Of a stretch of DNA of 23,155 bases, positions 1 to 19,631 are shown piece after piece. The notes below the pieces were generated by a model. The model worked only from the letters and a program-made list of their open reading frames with translations, was not told the DNA's origin and made no database searches. The stretch's first letter is position 1; each line of letters opens with the position of its first letter. Origin of the DNA: a virus; IMG/VR virus record IMGVR_UViG_3300003691_000055, positions 1-23,155 of that record; one strand, written 5' to 3'. The translations under genes and the position numbers were made by a program.

Positions 1-3000
1 TTCACCATTAGTTAAGATTACAAAAGAAGCTACCACATCAGAATTAACATCACTAAAATTCTGTAAAGTAAGAATGGAATGAGTATTTGCTGATAACTGG
101 GAAGGTTTAGCTCCTATCCATTGCCATGTAGCAGGAAAAGAAAGAGTCCTATCTGTGACAGTATTATTCATTATTTTAATTGTTTTAATAACACTTCTAT
201 CAAAACTCATATTAGCAGTTGTAACTGAAAAATCACTATTAATACTATATATTTCAATATCAGGACTACTAAAATCAATGATTTTTGATGGTGTTATTGC
301 ATTAATGTTTATATTATCAGAATAAGATCTATAAGTGGCATCTGCATAACCCTTATTAATTAAGGACTTAGAAGTAAACCCAGATGAATAATCACCTCCA
401 TACTCCAACCCTTTTGTTATAGATCTAGCATCACTGAAATAAACACCTCCTTCTGAGAATAAAGTACTTTGATTATTAAGGTCAAAATAGATATAAGCAT
501 TATCATTTGAAGTTCCTTGTCTAGTACCAAAATACATTAATCCTGATTCATTATTACCAGTAACATTAGATTTTTGAAATCCGAGGTTACTTTGAGAATA
601 ATCAGCTTGTAATGCTGTGTTTATTGATAAGAATCCTCCATCAGCTACGGCAGTAGATAGTGAAGAAAATGATGAAGTGAGTACATTATTATCTCCTAAA
701 TTAAAATATTTAGTATCAGACTCAGTTTTATCATAATAATTAGAACTAGCTGCTGACCATATGGGATCAGTTTCAGTATATGAAGTAATATATCCATTAG
801 GATTAGTTGAATTATAAGGAGTATAACCTAATGCAGTAGTTACATCACTAGATGATACATCATCCTGATCAAGTTGCAACTCAGTATAAGTAGTATTATT
901 ATCTATATAATTAGTAGAGTGAATAGTACCTTGAGTGGTTAAAGTCCAATCAATTATACTATTTCCAATAGGTATAGTAGGTTTATTAGTTAAATCATTA
1001 TAATCTTTATCCCATGCTGTATAAATAGGATCAGTTTCATCAGCATTAATAAAATGATCTAAATCACTAATTTGACTTTCTGTGATAGATAAAGCAGATT
1101 CATGTTGAGTAACTGCTCCTTGAGTAACATTAAGATCAGGAACATCAGCCCAAACTACAACAGCAGTTAAATCATTAAGTTCTGCAAAAGTAGGATCTAA
1201 TACAATTGATCCACCAATATTATATCCAGTTGGTACACCTCTTAAATCCTGTGTTACTGTACCACCCATTAAATTAATCCATTGACCTGTATTATTATAT
1301 TTTAAAGGTATTTTACAAATAAGAAATGCTGTTGTTTGGTAATTTTCTGGAATTGTACTAATAGCATATGAAGGATTATCATTTAAAGCTTCTACATCAG
1401 AATCATGTCCTGCAGTTGGTAAATTAATAAATGTTTTTTGTTGACCCATAGAGTTCATTGATCCCCAAATTGTAAATACTACTCTATCATTATTTACAAT
1501 GGATGAACCATCAGCATATTCTCTAATATCACCAATATCTGTAATCTTCTGATTAGGTGTTAATGTACCTAAACCACTTGCATTAGCAACCCATATTCCA
1601 TCAGTACTTATATCTGTTGCAACCCATGTATTTCTATGTAATTGGAATACCATACCTTCTGTTGTAGTCAAATTAATAATATCAGGTGCACCTTCTGTTA
1701 TAGTAAGTGTTTGGGCAATACCACCATTATGAACATATTCTGCACCAATAAACCTTAGTTTCTCTCTAATTTTTGATAGTTGACCTCTAAGATCAGTTCC
1801 ATAATGAGATTCATCCATTCTTTGAAATAATAAAGCTCCATCACTTGCTACTTCAACATCACTCTGAATTAATGCAATGCCACACCATGCAAATTCTCCT
1901 GTTGGAAATACAGTAGATGAGTTTAATTGAGCAACACCACCACTATGAGTTACATATATGTAATTCATAACTTCATTAGCTAAAGTACCTTCAGTAAGCT
2001 GGATTCTAGCTCTACCACCAACTCCTGTTCCTGTAGTACAATCTAAATCATATTCAGAACCTCTACCAAAAATATACTCTACATCTCCACCACCTATTTT
2101 TTCAACTTCAAAATACACATTACCACCAGAAGTTGTTAAAAATATATCTTGTTTATCTTCACTTGTACCAGCTATAATTTTAGCTAACCCATGATAAATA
2201 GTATCACCATTTACATATAAATTACCAGAATGTAAATTAGCTGTTCCATCTTGACCTAACCATACATCAGTAGTTTGAGAAGAACCAAATGTAGCAGTGT
2301 GTGATCCTTTACCTATTGATCTACCTATTATTATTTGATCATCTTGATTATGATTTTCTGGTTGAGTTTGATATCCTATAAATATTGAATTTGTACTGCC
2401 ACCATTAAGTTCACTTTCTTCACCTACTGTAGTACCAGATAAATATCCAATTGAAATATTAGTATGACCATTTGTGTTATTTTCTAATGCTGAATGACCA
2501 AGTACTGTATTTCTATATCCAGATGTATTTTTATACAAAGCACTTTTACCAACAGCTGTATTTTTTTCACCATCAATATTAAAAGCCATTGCTGATTGTC
2601 CAATAGCAGTATTATCAATACCTGATGTATTAGACCATAAAGCAGCATTACCTAATCCTGTATTATTATCAGCATTAGAAGATTGCAATACTCCATATCC
2701 AATAGCTGTATTTGAACCACCTGTAGTATTACCATTTAAAGCATTAAAACCTAACCCTAAGTTTGCATTTTCAAAATCGGAAGTAACTAGATATGTTTGT
2801 AAATCAGATATTTGACTTTCAGTAATGGATATCCCAGTTGATTTATCCCATGCTATATAGACAGGATCAGTTTCAGTTTGTAAACCTAAATTAGCAGCAT
2901 GAATAGTAGCATTTCCATTTTCCCCAAAATAAATGTCAGTAACATTGTCATCTCCAATTGTAGCTGTATTTGAACCATTACCTATAGCATTTGCACCTAA

Positions 3001-3795
3001 TACTATTTGATTAGTTTCACCATCTGAATTAGCTACAGTTTGAGAACCTAAAAAGACAGAGTAAGATGCATTTGTATTCATACTACCTATATCTCTTTCT
3101 CCTGCTAGATATCCAAGTCCTACATTATAAGAACCATTAGTATTTCTATATAATGCTCCTTGTCCTATAGCAGTATTATAACTACCTGTTAAAAGACTAT
3201 ACATACTTGCATTACCAATACCAGTATTACTAGTTCCTGTAGTTAATGATCTAAGTGTTAAATATCCAAAAGCTGCATTTTCCCATCCAGTAGATAAACC
3301 TTCTAATGAATGCATACCAATAGCAGTGTTATTAGCTCCTGAAGATATATTAGCACCAGTGTTAGCACTTGCTATTATTATATTTCTATTAGTTCCATCA
3401 GGAATAATTATTTTACCAGCAACTTCTAAATCATTTAGATGAGTATATCCAGCTTTTAAAATTGGAGTTTCACCTATTAATCTCCAAGACGTATCTCCTA
3501 TTTTTTCTAAACCTGTAGGTTGATTTATAGCAGTTTTTAATACATAATTAGCACTATCAGAAATCCATATAGGATCTGTTTCAGGATTATTATTATCACC
3601 AACAAAATTAAATACAGCATCAGCAGTAGGAACATTTAATGTATCACCTTCAATAATACTGTCTGTAAATCCAATTATTTTAGAATTACCTAAACTAATT
3701 TCAGTTCTTACTATAACTTTATTAAACTCAGCTGTTTGTGCTTGTGTTAATGACATTGTAAATAGTAAAACTAGTAATGTTATTAATTTTTTCAT
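1..3795 (-). CDS. Large tail fibre / adhesin-like protein with signal peptide and YadA-head-like repeats (3' end outside window)
   Basis: An open frame of 1265 codons runs without a stop from the ATG at 3795 to the left edge, so the C-terminus is missing. The product opens with MKKLITLLVLLF...TQAQT, a textbook Sec signal peptide with cleavage expected after TQA. Residues ~156-230 and ~343-455 hold 17-residue repeats (NTAIGxxALxxNTxGxx) of the kind found in YadA-type adhesin heads and Bacteroidota surface proteins. Four ETDP motifs (residues 72, 308, 920, 1008) followed by Asp/Tyr-rich linkers, and two copies of SITESQISDL, are typical of phage fibre shafts. Residues ~540-700 form a beta-rich middle domain. 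The gene ends the fibre cluster, 11 nt after the preceding stop. A receptor-binding fibre is the best guess from context, but a signal peptide is unusual for a virion protein; a phage-encoded host-surface adhesin is the alternative. Confidence 0.8.
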   Translation of the reverse strand, partial: MKKLITLLVLLFTMSLTQAQTAEFNKVIVRTEISLGNSKIIGFTDSIIEGDTLNVPTADAVFNFVGDNNNPETDPIWISDSANYVLKTAINQPTGLEKIGDTSWRLIGETPILKAGYTHLNDLEVAGKIIIPDGTNRNIIIASANTGANISSGANNTAIGMHSLEGLSTGWENAAFGYLTLRSLTTGTSNTGIGNASMYSLLTGSYNTAIGQGALYRNTNGSYNVGLGYLAGERDIGSMNTNASYSVFLGSQTVANSDGETNQIVLGANAIGNGSNTATIGDDNVTDIYFGENGNATIHAANLGLQTETDPVYIAWDKSTGISITESQISDLQTYLVTSDFENANLGLGFNALNGNTTGGSNTAIGYGVLQSSNADNNTGLGNAALWSNTSGIDNTAIGQSAMAFNIDGEKNTAVGKSALYKNTSGYRNTVLGHSALENNTNGHTNISIGYLSGTTVGEESELNGGSTNSIFIGYQTQPENHNQDDQIIIGRSIGKGSHTATFGSSQTTDVWLGQDGTANLHSGNLYVNGDTIYHGLAKIIAGTSEDKQDIFLTTSGGNVYFEVEKIGGGDVEYIFGRGSEYDLDCTTGTGVGGRARIQLTEGTLANEVMNYIYVTHSGGVAQLNSSTVFPTGEFAWCGIALIQSDVEVASDGALLFQRMDESHYGTDLRGQLSKIREKLRFIGAEYVHNGGIAQTLTITEGAPDIINLTTTEGMVFQLHRNTWVATDISTDGIWVANASGLGTLTPNQKITDIGDIREYADGSSIVNNDRVVFTIWGSMNSMGQQKTFINLPTAGHDSDVEALNDNPSYAISTIPENYQTTAFLICKIPLKYNNTGQWINLMGGTVTQDLRGVPTGYNIGGSIVLDPTFAELNDLTAVVVWADVPDLNVTQGAVTQHESALSITESQISDLDHFINADETDPIYTAWDKDYNDLTNKPTIPIGNSIIDWTLTTQGTIHSTNYIDNNTTYTELQLDQDDVSSSDVTTALGYTPYNSTNPNGYITSYTETDPIWSAASSNYYDKTESDTKYFNLGDNNVLTSSFSSLSTAVADGGFLSINTALQADYSQSNLGFQKSNVTGNNESGLMYFGTRQGTSNDNAYIYFDLNNQSTLFSEGGVYFSDARSITKGLEYGGDYSSGFTSKSLINKGYADATYRSYSDNININAITPSKIIDFSSPDIEIYSINSDFSVTTANMSFDRSVIKTIKIMNNTVTDRTLSFPATWQWIGAKPSQLSANTHSILTLQNFSDVNSDVVASFVILTNGE
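2434..2769 (-). repeat. Second block of 51-nt (17-residue) NTAIG-type coding repeats
   Basis: After an ETDP linker the motif resumes: NLGLGFNAL, NTAIGYGVL, NTGLGNAAL, NTAIGQSAM, NTAVGKSAL, NTVLGHSAL and a closing NISIGYLSG unit. Both blocks close with GYLxG followed by a serine- and asparagine-rich stretch, which suggests the whole block plus cap was duplicated as one unit. Confidence 0.8.
3100..3330 (-). repeat. First block of 51-nt (17-residue) NTAIG-type coding repeats
   Basis: Four consecutive 17-residue units start with NTAIG, NAAFG, NTGIG and NTAIG, followed by a variant unit starting NVGLGYLAG. The pitch is exactly 17 residues. DNA identity between units is degenerate, so this is a protein-level repeat rather than a recent tandem duplication. 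Confidence 0.8.
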
Positions 3796-3806
3796 TTTTT
3801 TAATAT

Positions 3807-4343
3807 TTAATTTGTATTTTTTTCAACTCTGAAATGTATGATAGCATTTGTAGAACATCCAATTTCAAAAGTTTCTACAGTTATATTTCTTAATCTTGTA
3901 CTAACAATTGTATTTGTAGCTATACTAATAGCTGTTACAAAAATAGATATTTCATCTGCATCATCACCCATTTTTGGAAAATTAATAATTTCATATTCAC
4001 CATCACCTTCTACATCAGCAACAAAAGTATATGTTATTTTTCCAGAATAATATTCTTGTTGTACACTTGAACTGGTAGAAGCTTTTAAAATTAAGTCATT
4101 ATTTGTAACTCCATTCCTAAACCAATATTCAGTGAAATTTGGGTTTATACCATCAGGATGTGTAATCCCAATGGTTAAACCCAAATGTCTTACCCCTTCA
4201 ACTCCTATTGGTGAACCTTCATTAAAACATTGACCAATTGCTATACCAATAGAATGGTATGGACCATATTTTAAGTCTATAGGTTTTTGAGAATTTATAT
4301 AAATCCCCATTGGTAATCTAAATGCTGTTCCTGAGTAAGCCAT
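3807..4343 (-). CDS. Small fibre-associated protein sharing its N-terminal module with the next fibre gene
   Basis: A 178-residue protein. Residues 1-90 closely match the N-terminus of the 548-residue fibre encoded just upstream: both contain FRLPMGIYIN, KPIDLKYGPY, a GLTIGI strand, TEYW and a TNNDLxLK end motif. The C-terminal ~85 residues are a different, beta-rich segment with an acidic DVEGDGEYEI stretch and the sequence GCSTNAIIHF near the end. It starts 6 nt after the upstream gene's stop and ends 11 nt before the large fibre gene, so it belongs to the same operon. It could be a short fibre, a fibre adaptor or a shortened paralogue in which the shared head carries a different tip. Function is inferred from context only. 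Confidence 0.7.
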   Translation of the reverse strand: MAYSGTAFRLPMGIYINSQKPIDLKYGPYHSIGIAIGQCFNEGSPIGVEGVRHLGLTIGITHPDGINPNFTEYWFRNGVTNNDLILKASTSSSVQQEYYSGKITYTFVADVEGDGEYEIINFPKMGDDADEISIFVTAISIATNTIVSTRLRNITVETFEIGCSTNAIIHFRVEKNTN

Positions 4344-4348
4344 AATTT
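4261..4348 (-). repeat. Duplicated 5' gene segment, copy 1
   Basis: An 88-nt stretch covering the start of the 178-residue gene aligns without gaps to 5914-6001 at the start of the 548-residue gene. By hand count about 73 of 88 bases match. The identity includes the few bases just upstream of the ATG, so the duplication took the translation start along. Confidence 0.75.
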
Positions 4349-4349
4349 C

Positions 4350-5996
4350 TTATTGTGAGATAGTTATTTTATAATTTGCATCAACACCATATCCAGATGG
4401 TAAGATTGATTCATAAACATCATATGATACTGGATTCCCACCTGCATCATCAACACTGATTGTTGTTATACTAAAAGTCGATGTTACATCAGCAAAAGCA
4501 GATTCAACATACTGTACTAAAACATTAGATCCAAATATAACAGCAAAAGTTGTCTTTAAGGTACTAGGTTCTAATGTTATAGTAAATTCACCATTATTAA
4601 TAGTATCTAAATAATCAGACTGTAGACTTCTTACATCATCACTATCTACAACAACTGTATCAAATCCATACCAAAATTTATATCTACCTTTTACAGATTT
4701 AGTTATTGCAACATGATTACCTGCAACCCTTTGTGGATCAAGATTTACACCTGCATTACCTTTGTTATCAAAATATTGTCCTGTACCTGCATCATAAGTT
4801 GCTCTTGCTGAAAAACTATTTAATCCATGAGCAATGATTATATTTTTTACAAATATAGCAGTAGCATTTGAAATATCATCAACACCATTTAAAAGTAATG
4901 TATAATTAGTTGCTTCACCAACCAAAGGATTAACATTTGTTGTTCCATCACCATCTTTAATAGTACCTCTAATAAATATACCTGTAGTAGTAATTTCTAT
5001 ATCTGTTCCAACTTCAACAATTGAAGGAGCAGAACCAAGTGATATACCAAATGTTTTATCCTGAGAAATGTAAGCTTGTATACTAGGAAATAATATCATA
5101 TCAATTAATGTAGATATTGATTGACCAGTTAAATCACCAGCAGTTGTACCAACAGCAATACCACCATGATCTTCAGGTGTTGTTGTATTTGGGTCCATAG
5201 CTGATACATATATACCATCAGAAGATACTGGAATCCACATCCTTGTACCATCAGCTAAACTAGATAATACATATCCATCTATAGCAGGATTATTTAAACT
5301 GTTTTCTTTTGTTGCTAAAGCTGCAACTAAATCTGGTTGATTAGCAATATCACCACCAATATTACCCCATATAGTTGCTATGTCTGCAGATGCAATTTTC
5401 ATCCATCCAAGATCAGTTTTAACAGCCAAATCACCTAATGCCCAGACAGATATACCACCTAAATCAGTAGAACCTGCTGTAGTTACTCTCCAAGCAAAAC
5501 CAGTTGTTAATGCACCAGATATATCAGGAGTATTAGAAAAAGCATCCCAAGGACCTTGTAATCTAACTGTTAGTGCTATTGCTGCATCTATAGCAGCCTG
5601 TTGTGGTGTAGATACTATTTTATTAATATCTGCTGTATTATCAACATTACCTAAGTTAATATGCTCCTTTAGTAAAGTAATATCACCATTTTCATTAGGT
5701 AAGATAGTATTAACTGATTCAACTGTTCCTGACCCAACACCACTTGATTTCAAAGTTAAGTCATTATTTGTCAGTCCATTATCCCACCAATATTCTGTTA
5801 CTGTCCCATTTATTAAAATACCAATTGTCAAACCTTTATATCTAACACCTTCTTGATATACTGGTGAATCAACATGAAAAGCATGACCTTCTTCAGTACT
5901 AGTACCCAAGTATGGTCCATATTTTAAGTCTATAGGTTTATTAGCATTTATATAGATACCCATAGGTAATCTAAAAGCTGCACCATTAAAAGCCAT
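4350..5996 (-). CDS. Tail fibre protein with shared N-terminal and C-terminal modules
   Basis: A 548-residue modular fibre. Residues 1-90 are the module shared with the 178-residue neighbour. Residues ~95-150 contain LPNENGDITL and INLGNVDNTADINK, the classic tail-fibre shaft pattern (GxVxL...LGNVDNTxD). Residues ~150-270 are a linker domain with a GPWDAF start and VLSSLADGTRMWIP. From DHGGI at residue ~276 to the end is a 273-residue domain paralogous to the C-terminus of the 525-residue fibre upstream, sharing DHGGI, GDL.G, the DxxxFP stretch, GQYxDN, RVAGN/RIAGN, QYVESxxADVT and YDVY...YGVxANYKI. The DNA at its 5' end repeats that of the downstream gene. Role in host binding is inferred from these fibre motifs. 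Confidence 0.8.
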   Translation of the reverse strand: MAFNGAAFRLPMGIYINANKPIDLKYGPYLGTSTEEGHAFHVDSPVYQEGVRYKGLTIGILINGTVTEYWWDNGLTNNDLTLKSSGVGSGTVESVNTILPNENGDITLLKEHINLGNVDNTADINKIVSTPQQAAIDAAIALTVRLQGPWDAFSNTPDISGALTTGFAWRVTTAGSTDLGGISVWALGDLAVKTDLGWMKIASADIATIWGNIGGDIANQPDLVAALATKENSLNNPAIDGYVLSSLADGTRMWIPVSSDGIYVSAMDPNTTTPEDHGGIAVGTTAGDLTGQSISTLIDMILFPSIQAYISQDKTFGISLGSAPSIVEVGTDIEITTTGIFIRGTIKDGDGTTNVNPLVGEATNYTLLLNGVDDISNATAIFVKNIIIAHGLNSFSARATYDAGTGQYFDNKGNAGVNLDPQRVAGNHVAITKSVKGRYKFWYGFDTVVVDSDDVRSLQSDYLDTINNGEFTITLEPSTLKTTFAVIFGSNVLVQYVESAFADVTSTFSITTISVDDAGGNPVSYDVYESILPSGYGVDANYKITISQ

Positions 5997-6007: not shown

Positions 6008-7585
6008 TTAAGTTACTATTATTTTATAATTTGCAATTACACCATAAGGAGCAGGTAATACATTTGTATATACATCATAATCTAAACTACCAACACCACC
6101 ATCACTAATAGATAATTCCTGTTTTGTGAAAATAGCTGTTACATCTGCATATGATGATTCAACATATTGAATTTTTATATTCTTTCCTCTTGGTATAGCA
6201 ATAGCAATTTTTAATGAATCATCAGGTATTACCAGATTAAATTCACCTTCATCTGAGCTATTTAAAAATTCAGAAGGCATTAGTTTTACCTCACCTGAAT
6301 TTGTAGGTGTTACATTTACACCATAAAATATTTTTTGTCTTCCCATTACATTAATGTTATTAGATGATTTATTTCCTGCAATCCTATAGCTATCAAGATT
6401 ATCTGCTTGTTCACCAGTATTATCATAATATTGTCCTTCACCCGGATTATGCAATGCTGAACAATACCAAATATTACTACCTTTCAATATTGTTTGTTCA
6501 ATATGTAACTGACCTGTTTCATTAGTATCTACTAGTGAATCATCAAAGAAAAAATTAAAACTATTTTCATAACCTACAAGTCCATTAGGGTTAAGGATGC
6601 CGTTACCATTTATAATTGTTCCTCTGTCAAACATAGAAGTAAAGTCTGCAACATGTATAGTACCAACTTCAACAATAGTAAGTGATGGACTTTTTATTAA
6701 AGTAAGACTCTTATTCTGACCAATTTTTGCTTCGACAGTTGGAAACACAATTTTATCAAACATCTCACTCATAGTTTTACCATTTAAATCCCCTGCTTTT
6801 GTCCCAGATTTAATACCACCATGGTCTTCTTGTGATTCAGTATCTAAATGTACTAATGGTGTATAAACAGCACCAGAATCTACAGGGTTGCTTATTTTTA
6901 ACCAATCATCTGCTGATGTACCATTACCACCTCCACCATATACTATCCAATCACCTTTGATCCAAGATCTATTTTCATCCTGTGAATTTATACCATCATG
7001 ATCTACAATCCAATACCATCCTTCTTTCCCAATGCTTACCTCAGTACTAGGAAATAAATTTGTTTCTGGATTCCAAAAACCTTTTAATATATAAGTGTTT
7101 TGACCACCTATTATATTTTGTAATTGACTAAAATTAACAGCATCACTTGAACTTTCACCATTTGCAACTTTGAATTTTATAGATGCATTACCACTACTGT
7201 TAGCTTTATTATTTATACCATGAGCATCAGATGTATTTATAATATGTTTATGCAAATCTTCACTTGTGATTAAAATACCTTGATAATACAATGCTTCAGC
7301 TTTATCTACAATATTGTTATCATTTTTGTCATATACTCCCCTAAACATCATCTGATCATTAATTGCAATACCACCCAAAGAAACAATACCGTTTTTCTTA
7401 ACTAATGAATTTATTGAATCTCTTGGTTTAGTATCGACAATAGTCAAATACAAAATCATGCTATCTTCATCAAGTACTAATAATCCTCTATTATCAAAAG
7501 AACCAAAATATGATAAAATATCATCAACTCTAACACTATAAAGTGCTGAGTTTCTTTTTTGTAACTTTTTAAATTGATTGTTCAT
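6008..7585 (-). CDS. Tail fibre protein with EF-hand-like loop and shared C-terminal module
   Basis: A 525-residue protein. The N-terminal ~100 residues are unrelated to the neighbouring fibres and end with DKNDNNIVDKAE (residues 86-97), whose D/N/N/I/D/E spacing (1,3,5,7,9,12) fits an EF-hand-like calcium loop. Residues ~165-245 contain GFWNPETN, GWYWIV, GDWIVYGGG and ADDWLKI, a Trp-rich beta domain seen in Bacteroidota phage fibres. From DHGGI at residue ~254 to the end is a 272-residue domain paralogous to that of the 548-residue fibre. Its ATG overlaps the stop of the 160-residue gene as TAATG, so translation is probably coupled. A host-recognition fibre is the likely role, from motifs and location. 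Confidence 0.78.
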   Translation of the reverse strand: MNNQFKKLQKRNSALYSVRVDDILSYFGSFDNRGLLVLDEDSMILYLTIVDTKPRDSINSLVKKNGIVSLGGIAINDQMMFRGVYDKNDNNIVDKAEALYYQGILITSEDLHKHIINTSDAHGINNKANSSGNASIKFKVANGESSSDAVNFSQLQNIIGGQNTYILKGFWNPETNLFPSTEVSIGKEGWYWIVDHDGINSQDENRSWIKGDWIVYGGGGNGTSADDWLKISNPVDSGAVYTPLVHLDTESQEDHGGIKSGTKAGDLNGKTMSEMFDKIVFPTVEAKIGQNKSLTLIKSPSLTIVEVGTIHVADFTSMFDRGTIINGNGILNPNGLVGYENSFNFFFDDSLVDTNETGQLHIEQTILKGSNIWYCSALHNPGEGQYYDNTGEQADNLDSYRIAGNKSSNNINVMGRQKIFYGVNVTPTNSGEVKLMPSEFLNSSDEGEFNLVIPDDSLKIAIAIPRGKNIKIQYVESSYADVTAIFTKQELSISDGGVGSLDYDVYTNVLPAPYGVIANYKIIVT

Positions 7586-11537: not shown

Positions 11538-12329
11538 TTATAATTTTTCTAATATTAGTGCTTTAATTGCTTGATTTTCAGGATTAGAAAGATGTTTGAC
11601 TGCTTCATCAGTATTAAACCCAATTCTATCACCCATATAAAGAACAGCATTACCTTCTTTTTGTAATATATTCTTATGAATAGCTTCTAAAACTAATGCT
11701 CTATCATAAATAGATTGTTTTGTTCTACTAATTAGTATTGTGAATTCCTCAATTTTTGTATCAAGAATTTCATCCATCTCAACATCTAAGTAACTCTGAC
11801 TTTGACCTCTCATTGATTTGCCAGAGATGATTTGTATAATATTAGCTTTGTCATCTGTGTTCATTTTCAACACAATTTCATTTGCTTTTCTCTTTTGTTG
11901 TATTTTTGTAGCTTTAATTTTTACTTCTTCAGCTTCATCAAAAATAACAAATGTTGCATCTGGATATAAACCTTCTTCAAGACCTGCTTGTGAATTTGCA
12001 ACAAATTTACTTGCTTTCAGAATTCCTATTTTAATAATATCTAATGATTTATTAGTATCAAAAATTGTTGTTCTGTATGGTAGCTTTACCTGTGCTGTTT
12101 TTGATCCCCAAAAAGGATGTCCTTCATCTGGGTTATAATCATCTGATAGATCAAAACCAGTTGCAGCAGATAATTTTTCTTTTTCTTCTTCTGATAAACC
12201 AGTAGCATATTTACCAGTAGCATCATCATATAATGATTCTAATACTAATGGTTGGCTAAAACTTTCTTTGTTATATTTACCATGCCATTTTTTTACATCT
12301 GTTGGTTTAACTTTTATTAAAGTACTCAT
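11538..12329 (-). CDS. Conserved Bacteroidota-phage structural protein downstream of capsid gene
   Basis: A 263-residue protein recognisable as a common family in Bacteroidota phages: N-terminal KKWHGK motif, then TGLSEEEKEKL, a PFWGSK segment (~residues 72-77), LPYRTTIFDT, KIGILKASKFVANS, EGLYPDATFVIFDE, EVKIKATK and a closing helix with NPENQAIKALILEKL. The family lies close to capsid genes and is thought to be a virion or head-completion protein; its precise role is unknown to me. The start ATG follows an A-rich leader about 30 nt past the capsid hairpin. It is followed closely by the connector-like gene. Identification of the family is from recalled motif similarity, not a search. Confidence 0.6.
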   Translation of the reverse strand: MSTLIKVKPTDVKKWHGKYNKESFSQPLVLESLYDDATGKYATGLSEEEKEKLSAATGFDLSDDYNPDEGHPFWGSKTAQVKLPYRTTIFDTNKSLDIIKIGILKASKFVANSQAGLEEGLYPDATFVIFDEAEEVKIKATKIQQKRKANEIVLKMNTDDKANIIQIISGKSMRGQSQSYLDVEMDEILDTKIEEFTILISRTKQSIYDRALVLEAIHKNILQKEGNAVLYMGDRIGFNTDEAVKHLSNPENQAIKALILEKL

Positions 12330-12414: not shown

Positions 12415-13866
12415 TTAGTTTCTGGTCAAAATTAATTCACCACATCTAGTCACATCTTCTACGTGTAACCCTACTTGCTTTTCAACATGCATTTCATAGT
12501 AGTTACCTGAGTGAGACATTAAACCACCCTTATTTGGTCCATAAGGATTTGATAAACCACCTACATAACCTAATTTGTAACCATTCTTTTTGTTCATAAT
12601 TTTTACATTAGAACTAGCACCTTCACCACTAAAGTCAAGGAATGTGATTCTTTGAGATTCAATAGGAAATCCTGTTAATTCATCAATTTCAAAGTTGATT
12701 TCTCTATCATCATATAATGGGTTATGAATTAATTCTAATTCAGCACCATTAGCCATTATATATTTTGTGAATTGATAACCAGCTTGTAAAGCATTACTTG
12801 AATACTCAGAAGTAGTTGTGTCCATAGTAAGACCTTGAACAACTTGGATAAATCCAGTTCTTTCAGCCCATGCTTGGATAGCTCTGTGGAATAATAACAT
12901 TCCATATTCACCTGTAAAACCTTTAATTTTTCTCTTAACACCCGGCTTAACTCTTGAATAGAAAATATCCATAAGATATTCTTCAATCATTTTAGCTGTT
13001 AAGTGACTATATCTATGTACGTGACCATCTTCTAACATTTCTTGTAGTCCGGGACCACTAAAAATAGGTCTACCATTTGCACCTGTTACTGTATCAGTAC
13101 TTCTTGAATACCAGAAACCTCTTTCAAGTTCTCTATACCATTGTTGCCAATACTCTACTTCTGCATACTTTACCCAACTTTTATGGGTTTGACCTTTGGT
13201 ATCTTGAATACCAACTGCAAGAACTTCATCACTAGCATCACCAGTAACTTTATACTTCTTACGATATCTACCCATTCTATTAGTTAATGCAAGTGGCATA
13301 CTGTACTGAGTAGAACCTGATTGTTCAGCAGCTTCTTCATACTGAGAGTACAATTTACCCCATTGTTGTCCGGGGGTTAAAAATTTAACTGGTAAGAATG
13401 CATTTGGATCATCACTCATTAGACGAACCACATACTGTGTTCCTGTACCATCTTTTTTAACTTCTTCTTGGATTCTACATTGGTACTTCTTATTAGAAGT
13501 TCCGGGAAAAATAACATCACCCGGTTGATACCAATTTTCATCAAGCTTCATCTTGAATGGTTGTCTCCTTTTACCCGGAGTAGAGTTACCAGCTTCAAGG
13601 TTTTCAACAACAACTAAAGGTCTAGTATTAGCACCTTTAAGTTCCCATTCCCACTGAGTACTACCAATAGTTTCTTCTTTACCCAATCCAACTAGGTTGG
13701 AAGTCAGTGGGTTGTCAGAATATCTATGAGCAGTAAAAAGTTGGTTCATCTTTGATCCAATTGCTTCTGGCTTGGCAATAAGAGCTGCACCTAAGTGGTT
13801 CATCTCTGTCATGTTAGCATGCCATGGCATTTGCTTAGTGACCATTTTACTTTGTAATAAACTCAT
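12415..13866 (-). CDS. Major capsid protein
   Basis: A 483-residue protein directly downstream of the scaffold-like gene, in the usual terminase-portal-scaffold-capsid order. It has no catalytic or membrane motif and is a mixed alpha/beta soluble protein. Recognisable blocks include WEWELKGANTRPL (~72-84), the ENWYQPGDVIFPG strand (~110-122), WQQWYRELERGFWYSRS, YSRVKPGVKRKIKGFTGEYG (~309-328, with FHRAIQAWAERTG following), and IHNPLYDDREINFEIDE. The size fits an HK97-fold capsid subunit without a cleaved domain. The leader is A-rich (AAAACAAAAATTAAACAATT before ATG) with no Shine-Dalgarno. More G/C-containing codons than neighbours and a stable hairpin after the stop fit very high expression. 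The assignment rests mainly on order, length and context. Confidence 0.85.
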   Translation of the reverse strand: MSLLQSKMVTKQMPWHANMTEMNHLGAALIAKPEAIGSKMNQLFTAHRYSDNPLTSNLVGLGKEETIGSTQWEWELKGANTRPLVVVENLEAGNSTPGKRRQPFKMKLDENWYQPGDVIFPGTSNKKYQCRIQEEVKKDGTGTQYVVRLMSDDPNAFLPVKFLTPGQQWGKLYSQYEEAAEQSGSTQYSMPLALTNRMGRYRKKYKVTGDASDEVLAVGIQDTKGQTHKSWVKYAEVEYWQQWYRELERGFWYSRSTDTVTGANGRPIFSGPGLQEMLEDGHVHRYSHLTAKMIEEYLMDIFYSRVKPGVKRKIKGFTGEYGMLLFHRAIQAWAERTGFIQVVQGLTMDTTTSEYSSNALQAGYQFTKYIMANGAELELIHNPLYDDREINFEIDELTGFPIESQRITFLDFSGEGASSNVKIMNKKNGYKLGYVGGLSNPYGPNKGGLMSHSGNYYEMHVEKQVGLHVEDVTRCGELILTRN

Positions 13867-15113: not shown

Positions 15114-17486
15114 TTATGACCCGCTTGGTTGTTTATTTAATTTCTTTTTCTCTATTGTATTTTTCTCTTTGTCCTGTGTCTTCTGATGTTTGAATTTATC
15201 TTCATCTAATTTTTGCTTTTTAATTTTAAGTTCAGCATCAACCCCAAATTTAGCAACTTCTAGGACATCTGGTACATCATTATTATTAACATCTTTATTT
15301 TCTGCAAAACCTAATGCTAATATAGTCTGTTTTTGTATTTCAGTTTTCCTATCTTCTTCTGCTTTAAGAACAACTAATTCTTTTGCTCTTTGATGTTCTT
15401 TTTCTGCATTTTCATCTTCAAGGGTTTTAAGTTCTTTTTCATGTGTAAGTCTTTGCTGTTCCATTGCATTTGTTTCTTTTCTCTTTCTTTCCTCAGCAAC
15501 TTCTAACAATTCTTCTGCTTCAGTAATACTATCAGTCTTCATGATTTTAACAATATCAGACATATCAATTGTTTGATTTTGCATAGCAGTAAGTCCAAGA
15601 TTATTAAGTGCTTCTTTCACTTTTACAGAATCCATACTATTTGCTACAAAGAATCCAAATTTAGATAATGATAATAAATCTTTATCTACTTTAATTATTT
15701 CTCTTGAAAAATCATCTAATATATAATCTAAAGCTTCTATATCATTTGTTGAATAAGCTACTGCAGATAATTCTAAAAAGTATGTAAGTGTTGCTGTTTT
15801 TATATTATTGTGCCAATCAAAGTATGGTTCAATAATATAACTACCTTGTTGTATTGCTTGTTCTGCATTCTTGACAGCTTGGTATTGACCAAATCTACCT
15901 TCCATTTCTTTTGTAACACCAATTGCATTACCAGCTCTAGCTTCAATATATTCAGCAAGTTTTATATACTTCTCAATATCTGAAATAAGAGACATATCAA
16001 TCTCTTTAGCTGCTGTAGCCACTTCTGTAGCACCATTTCTATTACCTTCTTCATTAGGATTCATAAATCCAATCTTTATCTTATCAAGATAAGCTAAGAA
16101 TTTCTTCATACCTATTTTTTGACTAGTAGGTATGAGGTTCATATTAAGTAGTAATATTTTACCTTTATCAGATGCCATTAACATTTCAATCCTGTACATT
16201 ATAATATTATAATAATACTGATATAATTTAATTCTGTCCACTAGGGATGTGGCTTCACTATTCATATTATCAACAAAACCACCACTATAAGGTAACTTAA
16301 CATTATATAAGTTATCCATATCTTTTGGTTGTGATGGAACAGGTCTAAGATTTTTATATATATCATGACCAATTTTATAACCTTCATACACTTCTGGTAT
16401 ATTCTGCCATACAATATTTACATCACCAGCTTCTTCATTTAATCTATATCCTTCATCCACAATGCGTTCTTCAACAGTCATAGTTTCAGGATCTATATAT
16501 GACAAGAATCCAATTTGTTTTATTGCTTTCCAAGTCCTATGAATTACTTTTATTTTATTGATTTGATTTTCATTATCAAATGATAATTCATCTGCAGAAG
16601 AACCATTTGTACCAAGTTCATATATTGTTCTTATTTCATCATCAGTAAGAGTATCAAACATTTCAATAATAGCTGTAGGTGATAACCATAAATCTACACC
16701 AGCATATTCACCATCTTGTATATAATCACCTTCTGATAAATTGTCACCATAAAAATCAAGAGGGTTAACAACTTTTAGAACTGGTTTACCATTTATAATT
16801 CCAGACCAATATATCTGTGCAGCACTTATAATACTATGTTTCCAACCAGTATTAAATTTTTCTTGTATTTTTTGTTCTTTAATTGTGTATTTAAATATTT
16901 GAGACATTGCTATTTCAGCAGGATCTTGGTGTTTTCTTTTCATGTAATGATCCACTTCTGGTGGTGTCATTGCTTGAATCTCTTGTTGTATTACTTTACT
17001 TATTTTGTCTTTTTCTTCTTTTGATAGATCAGAACCTTTAGTTTGTTCTGCATACTTCATTTCAGCTTGTTCTTGTATAGGTGACATTATTTGTTGAATG
17101 ACATACTCTCTATATTTATCAAATTTGGCTGTTTCCTTTCTAGTTGTTGCTTCTGGGTTTACTGCATTAATTCTCCAAGCAAAAGGTCTTTCTAGCTCCA
17201 TACCAAGTAAAACTTTCATTTTACCACTTATGATATCTTTATTTGTAAAATCAGCAGGTAAATCACCTGTCTCTTCACCAAGTGGTTTATAAATGTATTC
17301 AAAATCTTTCTTATCAATTATACCATTAAATAGATTATAATTAACTTTTAGATTTTTATTACTCCTACTAGAATCTTCATCCTGAGAAAAAAAATTGATT
17401 TGTATAAAACTATCAATGGAATCTTTATACCATTGTTTTTTATTTCTATTCTTTTCTATTTCTGATAATAATCTTTTAGTTTCCAT
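15114..17486 (-). CDS. Portal protein
   Basis: A 790-residue protein next to the large terminase, of the long portal type found in crAss-like and other Bacteroidota phages (P22-like length). N-terminal markers are VNYNLFNGI (~49-57), DLPADFTNKDIISGK and LLGMELERPFAWR. The central part holds TKEMEGRFGQYQAVKNAEQA (~525-545) followed by YIIEPYFDWHNN, typical of these portals. Residues ~650-720 are a long charged coiled coil. DVNNNDVPDVLE at 732-743 has perfect EF-hand-loop spacing, followed by a Lys/Glu/Gln-rich tail to the end. The portal forms the dodecameric DNA channel at one capsid vertex and docks the terminase. It starts 6 nt after the terminase stop. The C-terminal helix could form the barrel seen in P22-like portals. 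Confidence 0.85.
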   Translation of the reverse strand: METKRLLSEIEKNRNKKQWYKDSIDSFIQINFFSQDEDSSRSNKNLKVNYNLFNGIIDKKDFEYIYKPLGEETGDLPADFTNKDIISGKMKVLLGMELERPFAWRINAVNPEATTRKETAKFDKYREYVIQQIMSPIQEQAEMKYAEQTKGSDLSKEEKDKISKVIQQEIQAMTPPEVDHYMKRKHQDPAEIAMSQIFKYTIKEQKIQEKFNTGWKHSIISAAQIYWSGIINGKPVLKVVNPLDFYGDNLSEGDYIQDGEYAGVDLWLSPTAIIEMFDTLTDDEIRTIYELGTNGSSADELSFDNENQINKIKVIHRTWKAIKQIGFLSYIDPETMTVEERIVDEGYRLNEEAGDVNIVWQNIPEVYEGYKIGHDIYKNLRPVPSQPKDMDNLYNVKLPYSGGFVDNMNSEATSLVDRIKLYQYYYNIIMYRIEMLMASDKGKILLLNMNLIPTSQKIGMKKFLAYLDKIKIGFMNPNEEGNRNGATEVATAAKEIDMSLISDIEKYIKLAEYIEARAGNAIGVTKEMEGRFGQYQAVKNAEQAIQQGSYIIEPYFDWHNNIKTATLTYFLELSAVAYSTNDIEALDYILDDFSREIIKVDKDLLSLSKFGFFVANSMDSVKVKEALNNLGLTAMQNQTIDMSDIVKIMKTDSITEAEELLEVAEERKRKETNAMEQQRLTHEKELKTLEDENAEKEHQRAKELVVLKAEEDRKTEIQKQTILALGFAENKDVNNNDVPDVLEVAKFGVDAELKIKKQKLDEDKFKHQKTQDKEKNTIEKKKLNKQPSGS

Positions 17487-17492
17487 AATACT

Positions 17493-19631
17493 TTAGCTTC
17501 TACTATATAAATCTAGTTCCAATATTTCTCTTGCAATTTGTGATTGTGTATTCTTTCCATATTCTTTTCCTTCTTCTTCTTCTTCTAATTGGAACATAAC
17601 CATCATAAATGACATGACCCTATCAAAGTTTCCTTTTCTACTGTATGCAATCAATTCTTGCAATAAACCAATATCTACAATAGTTTCCAAATTTAAAACT
17701 TTTTTTCCAGTTTCATCATAATCTCTTTCTGCTAGTAACCAGATCTTTATATATTTTTCACCAGCATCTTTCAATTTATCTACCATATGAATACCATAAA
17801 TTCTTGAAACAGTACTATTTTTGATATTTTTTGATATAACAGCATCAGGTTGAGATGCTAGTAAATGTAGCTTTCTTCTTCTTCTAAAATAACTTACCAC
17901 TTCAGTTACTTCATTTTCATGCATCATTTCCAAATTGTATAACTCACATAACATTTCAACATTTCTATTAAATATATCTGATGTTTGTGGTCTACCTACA
18001 TACCAAGCAACTAAGATATCTCTTGTGTATGAAAAGTTATTCGATGATTTATAGATATATATAGAACCTAATGATACACCTTCTGATTGATCTTGTCTAT
18101 ATGGGTCATAACCAGCTTTATAGAACCCAACTTGTGGGTCATTAACTGGTGGTTCAAGAATAACAACTGCACCAGTTTTATCCTTTTCCTTCATTGGAAA
18201 GTAGTTGATTGGTGTCAACTTACCTTTTAGATCTGGTTTTATTTTTACTTTACCATCTTCTTTATATAAGGTTACTGGTTGTGTTTTCTTACTATATAAT
18301 TCTTGTTCAATTACTGTTGCTAGTCTAGCTCTCAATTCTTCAACTGGAAATTCATTACCTGATACTTGTAAGAAAGCTTCTTCTGGACTGAATGGATATT
18401 GTTGTGTATATTCATTTAATGCACTACTACCAGAAGTTTCCATGATTATCTTCTGTCTTTCATTTTCTTCATGTGCTTTGGCTGCTGCATTATCAGAGTT
18501 ACCATCTTGATCAATGAATCCCGGCTTGTTCCAATAATCAGGTACAAAAAATCCACATTTGGATGTCTCATGTGTTTTGTTATCCCAAATATTTTTGAAA
18601 GGTAATAATTTATAAGGTATTGGATTGTAAAACATTTCAGCAAAATCAGTAGTTGCATTATCCATATCACCACCTGTACCAAATACTAACATTTGACCAG
18701 TAGTATATATACCATCTTCCATAGCTGGTTTGGTTTTCATGTAAGACTCTTTGAGATTTGGGAATTTACCAGCCTCTTCAAATTCAACCAAAGTACCATC
18801 CTTACCAATAGCAGCATCAGGGTTATCACCAAACGATAATGCCATGATAGTAGACTTATATCCCTTTTCAACTGATATATTGTTTTCATCTTTTTCTTCA
18901 TAAGATGCTTTCTTGTGACTTACTTTGTTTACAAAATCTCTTGCTTTAGCCCATCCTGTATGCTCATTGAAAAAGTTAACATAATCATTAGCCATTTTCA
19001 TAGTACCTTCTGGGTAAAGATATTTTTTATCAAAAGCTCCAATGATAGTTACAGAATTCTCAATTGTGTTATAGTTATTAGCAGCCATCCAACCATTTTT
19101 GTAAGAGTAACCTTTACGTCTTGATTTTCCTACAATAACATGAAAACCACCCTTTAAATAATCAGGTAATATTTGAACTTCTAATCCTAAACCTTCAATG
19201 TAATCTAATTCTGCTCCCCATCTAGCAATGTCAACAACATGATAATAATTATAATCACTGGACCAAAAAGAGGGAAAGGTAACATCTTTAGCTGCACCAT
19301 TCCCTCCTATTCTTGCCATTCTTCTTTGTTCAACAATACTTAAATTACTTGCTTCAGCTATCATACTTTCTTCAGCTTCTACAAATTCTTTTGTTAATTT
19401 AATCTGAGCAAAGTTTAGATAACCATAATGATTACCTGTTATATAAAGACCACCTGATGAATAACCATCTTGGCATCTTCTTAGTTGTTCATTCCAATAT
19501 TCTTTCCATGCAGGTGAACCCCATGGGTCTGGACAGTAATATCCATGCTTCAAGAAATGATTTGCTTCTTCTCTTAATGTTTCAGTATTTACAAAAATAC
19601 CATCAGAATTTCTTTCAGCGTAAACTTGCAT
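17493..19631 (-). CDS. terL: Terminase large subunit (DNA-packaging ATPase and nuclease)
   Basis: A 712-residue protein with both terminase domains visible. The N-terminal region contains WKEYWNEQLRRCQDGY and ITGNHYGYLNF, a pre-ATPase signature of Bacteroidota-phage terminases. The ATPase has a variant Walker A, VGKSRRKGYSYK (167-178), Walker B LVEFEEAG (281-288) with the catalytic Glu pair, and a coupling motif VFGTGG (316-321). The nuclease (RNase H fold) begins at KAGYDPYRQD, whose D509 is the first metal ligand; an acidic D670 in NFDRVMSFMMVM is a likely last one. It pumps DNA into the procapsid through the portal and cuts concatemers. It is the first gene of the head module, 32 nt downstream of a small gene, with the portal following after 6 nt. 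Confidence 0.95.
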   Translation of the reverse strand: MQVYAERNSDGIFVNTETLREEANHFLKHGYYCPDPWGSPAWKEYWNEQLRRCQDGYSSGGLYITGNHYGYLNFAQIKLTKEFVEAEESMIAEASNLSIVEQRRMARIGGNGAAKDVTFPSFWSSDYNYYHVVDIARWGAELDYIEGLGLEVQILPDYLKGGFHVIVGKSRRKGYSYKNGWMAANNYNTIENSVTIIGAFDKKYLYPEGTMKMANDYVNFFNEHTGWAKARDFVNKVSHKKASYEEKDENNISVEKGYKSTIMALSFGDNPDAAIGKDGTLVEFEEAGKFPNLKESYMKTKPAMEDGIYTTGQMLVFGTGGDMDNATTDFAEMFYNPIPYKLLPFKNIWDNKTHETSKCGFFVPDYWNKPGFIDQDGNSDNAAAKAHEENERQKIIMETSGSSALNEYTQQYPFSPEEAFLQVSGNEFPVEELRARLATVIEQELYSKKTQPVTLYKEDGKVKIKPDLKGKLTPINYFPMKEKDKTGAVVILEPPVNDPQVGFYKAGYDPYRQDQSEGVSLGSIYIYKSSNNFSYTRDILVAWYVGRPQTSDIFNRNVEMLCELYNLEMMHENEVTEVVSYFRRRRKLHLLASQPDAVISKNIKNSTVSRIYGIHMVDKLKDAGEKYIKIWLLAERDYDETGKKVLNLETIVDIGLLQELIAYSRKGNFDRVMSFMMVMFQLEEEEEGKEYGKNTQSQIAREILELDLYSRS

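Follow-up and report, generated by a model that had tools for sequence, protein, structure and literature searches.

A predicted Sec leader on a fibre-type protein of a crAss-like phage, and related leaders in the fibre blocks of other Bacteroidota phages

On the usual understanding, tailed phages put their virions together in the cytoplasm. How, then, could a fibre-type gene that opens with a signal peptide supply an exported protein to a virus assembled inside the cell? The question is raised by one end of a 23,155-nucleotide stretch of viral DNA (IMG/VR record IMGVR_UViG_3300003691_000055, positions 1 to 23,155; hereafter the window), a 23 kb viral contig whose genes lie mostly on the minus strand. 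The contig belongs to the crAss-like phages: the major capsid protein (12415..13866, minus strand; Pfam Crass_capsid, E 1.8e-145), with 64% identity to its counterpart in Flavobacterium phage FpV4, the portal protein (15114..17486, minus strand; phrog_6547, E 4e-161) and the large terminase subunit (17493..19631, minus strand; phrog_6681, E 4e-156) are all present, in the order typical of the group.

The ORF in question (1..3795, minus strand) starts at an ATG at position 3795 and encodes at least 1,265 residues; it stays open to base 1 without a stop, and its C-terminus lies beyond the contig end. Because the upstream sequence carries in-frame stops and the preceding gene ends only 11 bases away, the leader sits at the true gene start, while a second in-frame methionine at residue 14 would in principle permit a leaderless start. 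Residues 1–19, MKKLITLLVLLFTMSLTQA (3739..3795, minus strand), combine a positively charged n-region with a hydrophobic core, Thr at −3 and Ala at −1, and are followed by QTAEF, making Gln20 (3736..3738, minus strand) the predicted new, and predicted pyroglutamate, N-terminus. The whole layout, MKK-LITLLVLLFTMSL-TQA before Q, has every sequence hallmark of a Bacteroidota Sec/signal peptidase I leader of the Q-rule type, the rule being that Gln occupies +1 in a mean of 71% of Bacteroidetes signal peptidase I substrates, whereas Chlamydiae and Spirochaetes typically stay under 20% (PMC5837995). Judged by sequence, then, the N-terminus is a textbook Sec leader of this type.

To count as a leader under our simple, strict rule, an N-terminus needed a net positive charge, then an eight-residue hydrophobic stretch, small residues at −3 and −1, and Gln at +1. 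Shuffled N-termini pass this rule at 0.044%, and shuffles of the window ORF's own N-terminus at 0.6%; a rule-based scan of 200 large ORFs from viral contigs with TAIG fibres returned no leader. Within the window's phage group 12 of 821 ORFs carry Q-rule leaders, a frequency that, like the others given here, is drawn from loci gathered for other purposes and not from an unbiased survey; a DNA pattern for WDKDYNDL yields no unbiased frequency either, since the 15 stretches that it found were mostly known already. The start codon, the upstream stops, the strict rule and the shuffles together bear out what an earlier note on this DNA had claimed, namely that a real Sec-type leader stands at the gene start.

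Behind the leader the ORF is repetitive and modular, and it lies within the virion structural block. Two blocks of TAIG (YadA-head-like) repeats, at residues 146–310 (2866..3360, minus strand) and 345–530 (2206..2763, minus strand), have matches among PHROG families of tail spikes and virion structural proteins (phrog_6002, phrog_4636 (tail spike) and phrog_23837; E 1e-22 to 1e-27), in agreement with the earlier description of the protein as adhesin- or fibre-like; the remark that a fibre would be an unusual thing to export is likewise supported. Beyond the repeats, the module SITESQISDL..ETDPIYTAWDKDYNDLTNKP (residues 906–942; 970..1080, minus strand) contains short stretches 50–80% identical to Cellulophaga phage proteins phi18:3 gp085, phi19:1 gp101 and phi10:1 gp092 and to a protein of locus L003, all of them leader-bearing, and LINKGYADATY (residues 1145–1155; 331..363, minus strand) has its counterpart, LITKGYADATY, in the phi18:3 gp085 family. 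The stretch ETDPxYxAWDKDYNDL is 80% identical to phi18:3 gp085 over 20 residues, and a TAIG block recurs in gene 31 of phage Ingeline. As only short modules align, we rejected membership of the gp085 family (PHROG 17619); the window ORF may work like gp085-family proteins, with a kinship that is modular and not full-length. Neither this ORF nor either of two leader-bearing phage proteins matched anything in a PDB sequence search, and a single-sequence AlphaFold2 model of residues 526–898 was too poor to use (mean pLDDT 33). A trimeric autotransporter adhesin (YadA, type Vc) would have a leader, a head and stalk and, at its C-terminus, an outer-membrane barrel; the ORF shows a leader and head-like repeats, its C-terminus lies beyond the contig end, and no Pfam YadA model was reached in the 1,265 residues present.

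The four upstream genes of the same module all lack a leader. Among them are a small protein of 178 residues (3807..4343, minus strand), a fibre- or tail-like protein of 548 residues identified by PHROG comparison (4350..5996, minus strand) and a fibre-like protein of 525 residues (6008..7585, minus strand) with a YadA stalk segment at E 5e-5, under the curated cut-off. The first two (3807–5996) have a common N-terminus, MAxxGxAFRLPMGIYINxxKPIDLKYGPY, perhaps a shared virion-attachment segment.

The earlier note treated the leader as an oddity of one gene; applying our rule to phage loci both related and unrelated to the window, we find instead runs of two to five adjacent Q-rule leader genes in the fibre blocks of a crAss-like relative and of several Cellulophaga phage families. 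The crAss-like relative (L024/L264), with 75% capsid-protein identity to the window, has five in succession (730, 145, 159, 2,053 and 147 aa), the first with TAIG repeats as in the window ORF. Five also follow one another in Cellulophaga phage phi10:1 (345, 401, 777, 317 and 496 aa) and four in locus L003 (394, 625, 1,407 and 112 aa); there are four each in phi19:1 and Ingeline, three in phi18:3 and two each in phiSM and phi38:2, and phi46:3 has such a run as well. The Cellulophaga phages with these runs span the Assiduviridae, Pachyviridae, Duneviridae and an unclassified contractile-tailed group. Counting phage proteins of at least 250 aa, Gln stands at +1 in 32 of 39 distinct leaders, against the published host mean of 71% (PMC5837995). 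Further small leader ORFs (147 and at least 197 aa) lie downstream of the giant leader gene on the crAss-like contig, at 12306–14798 of L264.

Several of these proteins are recorded as parts of virions. GenBank lists phi18:3 gp085–087, phi10:1 gp091–094 and phi19:1 gp101–104 as structural on the basis of experimental MS/MS proteomics, and all eleven have a leader (with Lys instead of Gln at +1 in phi19:1 gp104); in phi10:1 and phi19:1 four such genes are adjacent. MS/MS detection could include an abundant exported protein that co-purifies, and the window ORF shares only modules with the annotated proteins; both points weigh against the reading that we favour below. A search of ten leader-bearing phage proteins for a Pfam T9SS domain came back empty (the C-terminus of the window ORF being outside the contig), so that no known route would take them past the periplasm. 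A protein search with phi10:1 gp094 across 397 genomes from the family of one Flavobacterium genome gave three weak partial matches only.

Other fibres do without a leader. None was found within the stretches scanned of the fibre genes of FpV4, crAss001, phi14:2, phi18:1 and phi38:1, or of 11b, 6H, FCL-2 and P12024L, and in L089, a relative nearer to the window (capsid protein 82%), the fibre module in the corresponding position is likewise leaderless. The leader pathway is thus not obligatory in Bacteroidota phages and, given these leaderless relatives and the leaderless neighbours within the window, gain and loss of the leader seem to follow exchange of fibre modules. Comparison of homologues in phages and host genomes, which the earlier note had proposed, shows that leaders recur in several phage lineages and in 43 of 50 TAIG ORFs with a complete 5′ end from prokaryote genomes, mostly Bacteroidota (Gln at +1 in 38), but in none of 72 such ORFs from viral contigs, which were gathered by TAIG similarity and whose hosts are mostly not identified. 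The contrast could suggest that the gene was captured from a host protein. That origin, also raised in the earlier note as capture of a host adhesin, gains from the chromosomal Bacteroidota TAIG proteins with Q-rule leaders and loses from the second TAIG block of the window ORF, for which the top 15 matches are without exception viral, to leaderless phage fibres; the first block has a mixed set of matches.

Where leaders are present, they bear signs of having been kept. Five distinct leaders precede a related downstream part in the gp085 family, and all five obey the Q-rule. Residues 55–777 of phi10:1 gp093 and 117–844 of Ingeline gene 32 are 49% identical behind unrelated N-termini, yet both proteins have a Q-rule leader. 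Between phi10:1 and phi18:3 the gp093-type leader differs by six synonymous and no replacement codons of 20; the balance is less clear for the gp094-type leader and the pairs are non-independent, so we take the codon and swap evidence as support and not as proof. When profiles of the mature N-domain from the gp085 family were set against phi18:1 gp60/61, which have no leader, no relation emerged, leaving us with no leader-bearing and leaderless pair that shares one N-terminal domain. Taken together, recurrence, the MS/MS notes, the N-terminal swaps, the synonymous-only change and the TAIG contrast make the fibre leader look selected and used.

The reading that we favour, tentatively and with somewhat less than even confidence, is that the window ORF encodes a fibre-type adsorption protein with a working leader, in a crAss-like phage that infects Bacteroidota; this protein would be exported, cut by signal peptidase I and joined to the virion at lysis. 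The product would leave the cytoplasm via Sec; host signal peptidase I would cut before Gln20, and a host enzyme would cyclise the exposed Gln to pyroglutamate. The cleaved fibre would then fold in the periplasm and, on lysis of the cell, attach to a particle complete in all other respects, a periplasmic pool freed by lysis being what the absence of T9SS domains from the ten leader-bearing phage proteins fits. T4 tail fibres and P22 tailspikes can attach to finished particles in vitro. Soluble copies freed at lysis may also act on neighbouring cells or receptors. Extended to the Bacteroidota tailed-phage set as a whole, the proposal would be one of two-compartment fibre assembly in Caudoviricetes, in which adsorption subunits exported by Sec and bearing a pyroglutamate cap would reach the particle at lysis, from outside the cytoplasm; of this wider version we are more doubtful.

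Could the exported protein work mainly on or around the infected cell instead, blocking or destroying receptors or capsule or aiding spread, its presence in particles being secondary or due to co-purification? The Q-rule leader of the window ORF would serve that end, and a leader-bearing relative in phiSM with a GDSL lipase and a carbohydrate-binding domain, the pectate-lyase families among other leader-bearing relatives and the exported type of the TAIG proteins of Bacteroidota genomes all lend it some weight. We nevertheless think it unlikely, in view of the position within the virion structural block, the MS/MS annotation of eleven leader-bearing proteins from three phages and the lack of a recognised surface-anchoring or T9SS domain. 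The earlier note had offered an exported adhesin in place of a virion fibre, which proves a false choice, relatives that share modules with the ORF being MS/MS-annotated as virion proteins. Its other proposal, a hydrophobic anchor, would have the leader remain uncleaved as an N-terminal helix plugging the fibre into the virion; the conserved N-terminal segments of the gp093 and gp094 families do resemble fixed attachment modules, and leader proteins are placed in virions by the MS/MS annotation. A retained anchor is disfavoured, however, since each of the five different leaders on orthologous gp085-family proteins retains Gln at +1 behind small residues at −3 and −1, a cleavage site for which an anchor has no need, and the fibres of nine other Bacteroidota phages have no such helix; we regard it as quite unlikely.

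It is similarly improbable, in our judgement, that the leader is a remnant of the capture of a host surface protein and of no use to the phage. Q-rule leaders on nearly all TAIG proteins of Bacteroidota genomes, set against their absence from 72 viral TAIG contigs, are what such a remnant would predict, but leaders stand on runs of two to five adjacent genes, outlast N-terminal swaps and in one family show synonymous change only, and the second TAIG block of the window ORF is nearest to leaderless phage fibres. AT-rich genomes do yield hydrophobic peptides rich in K, I, L and F, so that a leader-like N-terminus might arise by chance at an AT-rich gene start; with shuffle rates of 0.04–0.6%, none among 200 large ORFs in TAIG viral contigs and clustering in fibre blocks, we give this explanation almost no credence.

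The closest known counterparts of the window ORF are the Cellulophaga structural proteins of phi18:3, phi10:1 and phi19:1 (PHROGs 17619, 37350, 21199 and 16053), which resemble it in leader and in position within the fibre block and share ETDPxYxAWDKDYNDL and LIxKGYADATY with it, the TAIG block being shared by the Ingeline relative; they differ in belonging to other phage families, and their deposited annotation is silent on leaders. The TAIG proteins of Bacteroidota genomes (Pedobacter and others) combine the same Q-rule leader with TAIG repeats, but belong to bacterial loci, which may include prophages, and are not known from virions. Conversely, the TAIG tail fibres of cyanophages and pelagiphages place these repeats in a virion fibre, as here, whereas the viral TAIG contigs are leaderless in 72 of 72 cases. 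The tail fibre gp22 of crAss001 (PDB 7qoj) is likewise a crAss-like fibre, but has no leader, and its gene lies between those for portal and capsid. In Porphyromonas gingivalis prophages, Q-rule signal peptides have already been noted on phage genes; those genes lack an assigned function and are not tied to fibres or virions (PMC10367356). In the full-text literature searched, which does not extend to the 2013 Cellulophaga phage paper, where prior notice is possible, no account of Sec leaders on phage virion fibres came to light; the term 'signal peptide' is absent from the main text of a later survey of flavobacterial phages.

If virion proteins with host-matched Sec leaders occur in runs and keep those leaders when N-termini are exchanged, one part of the particle would follow another route than the rest, a proposition that can be tested at once in the Cellulophaga phages in culture. 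Leader-bearing fibre genes of Bacteroidota phages could be mistaken for host-derived genes during annotation, and the leader would also affect how the fibres and depolymerases of these phages are expressed for study.

Export leaders turned up in a few other phage proteins. In the crAss-like Cellulophaga phage phi14:2, gp002 (283–1278 of L105) carries an export leader and an OmpA domain. A fibre-like ORF of 1,052 aa with the WDKDYND motif (9809–12967 of L276) has a leader that lacks the +1 Gln (VLVAA before D) and is perhaps a case outside the Bacteroidota. Flavobacterium phage FCL-2 encodes a Q-rule leader protein of 147 aa (45363–45806 of L247) with the mature start QVGIATTTPTETLDVNG, which resembles that of several TAIG proteins of Bacteroidota genomes (VGIGTTTP).
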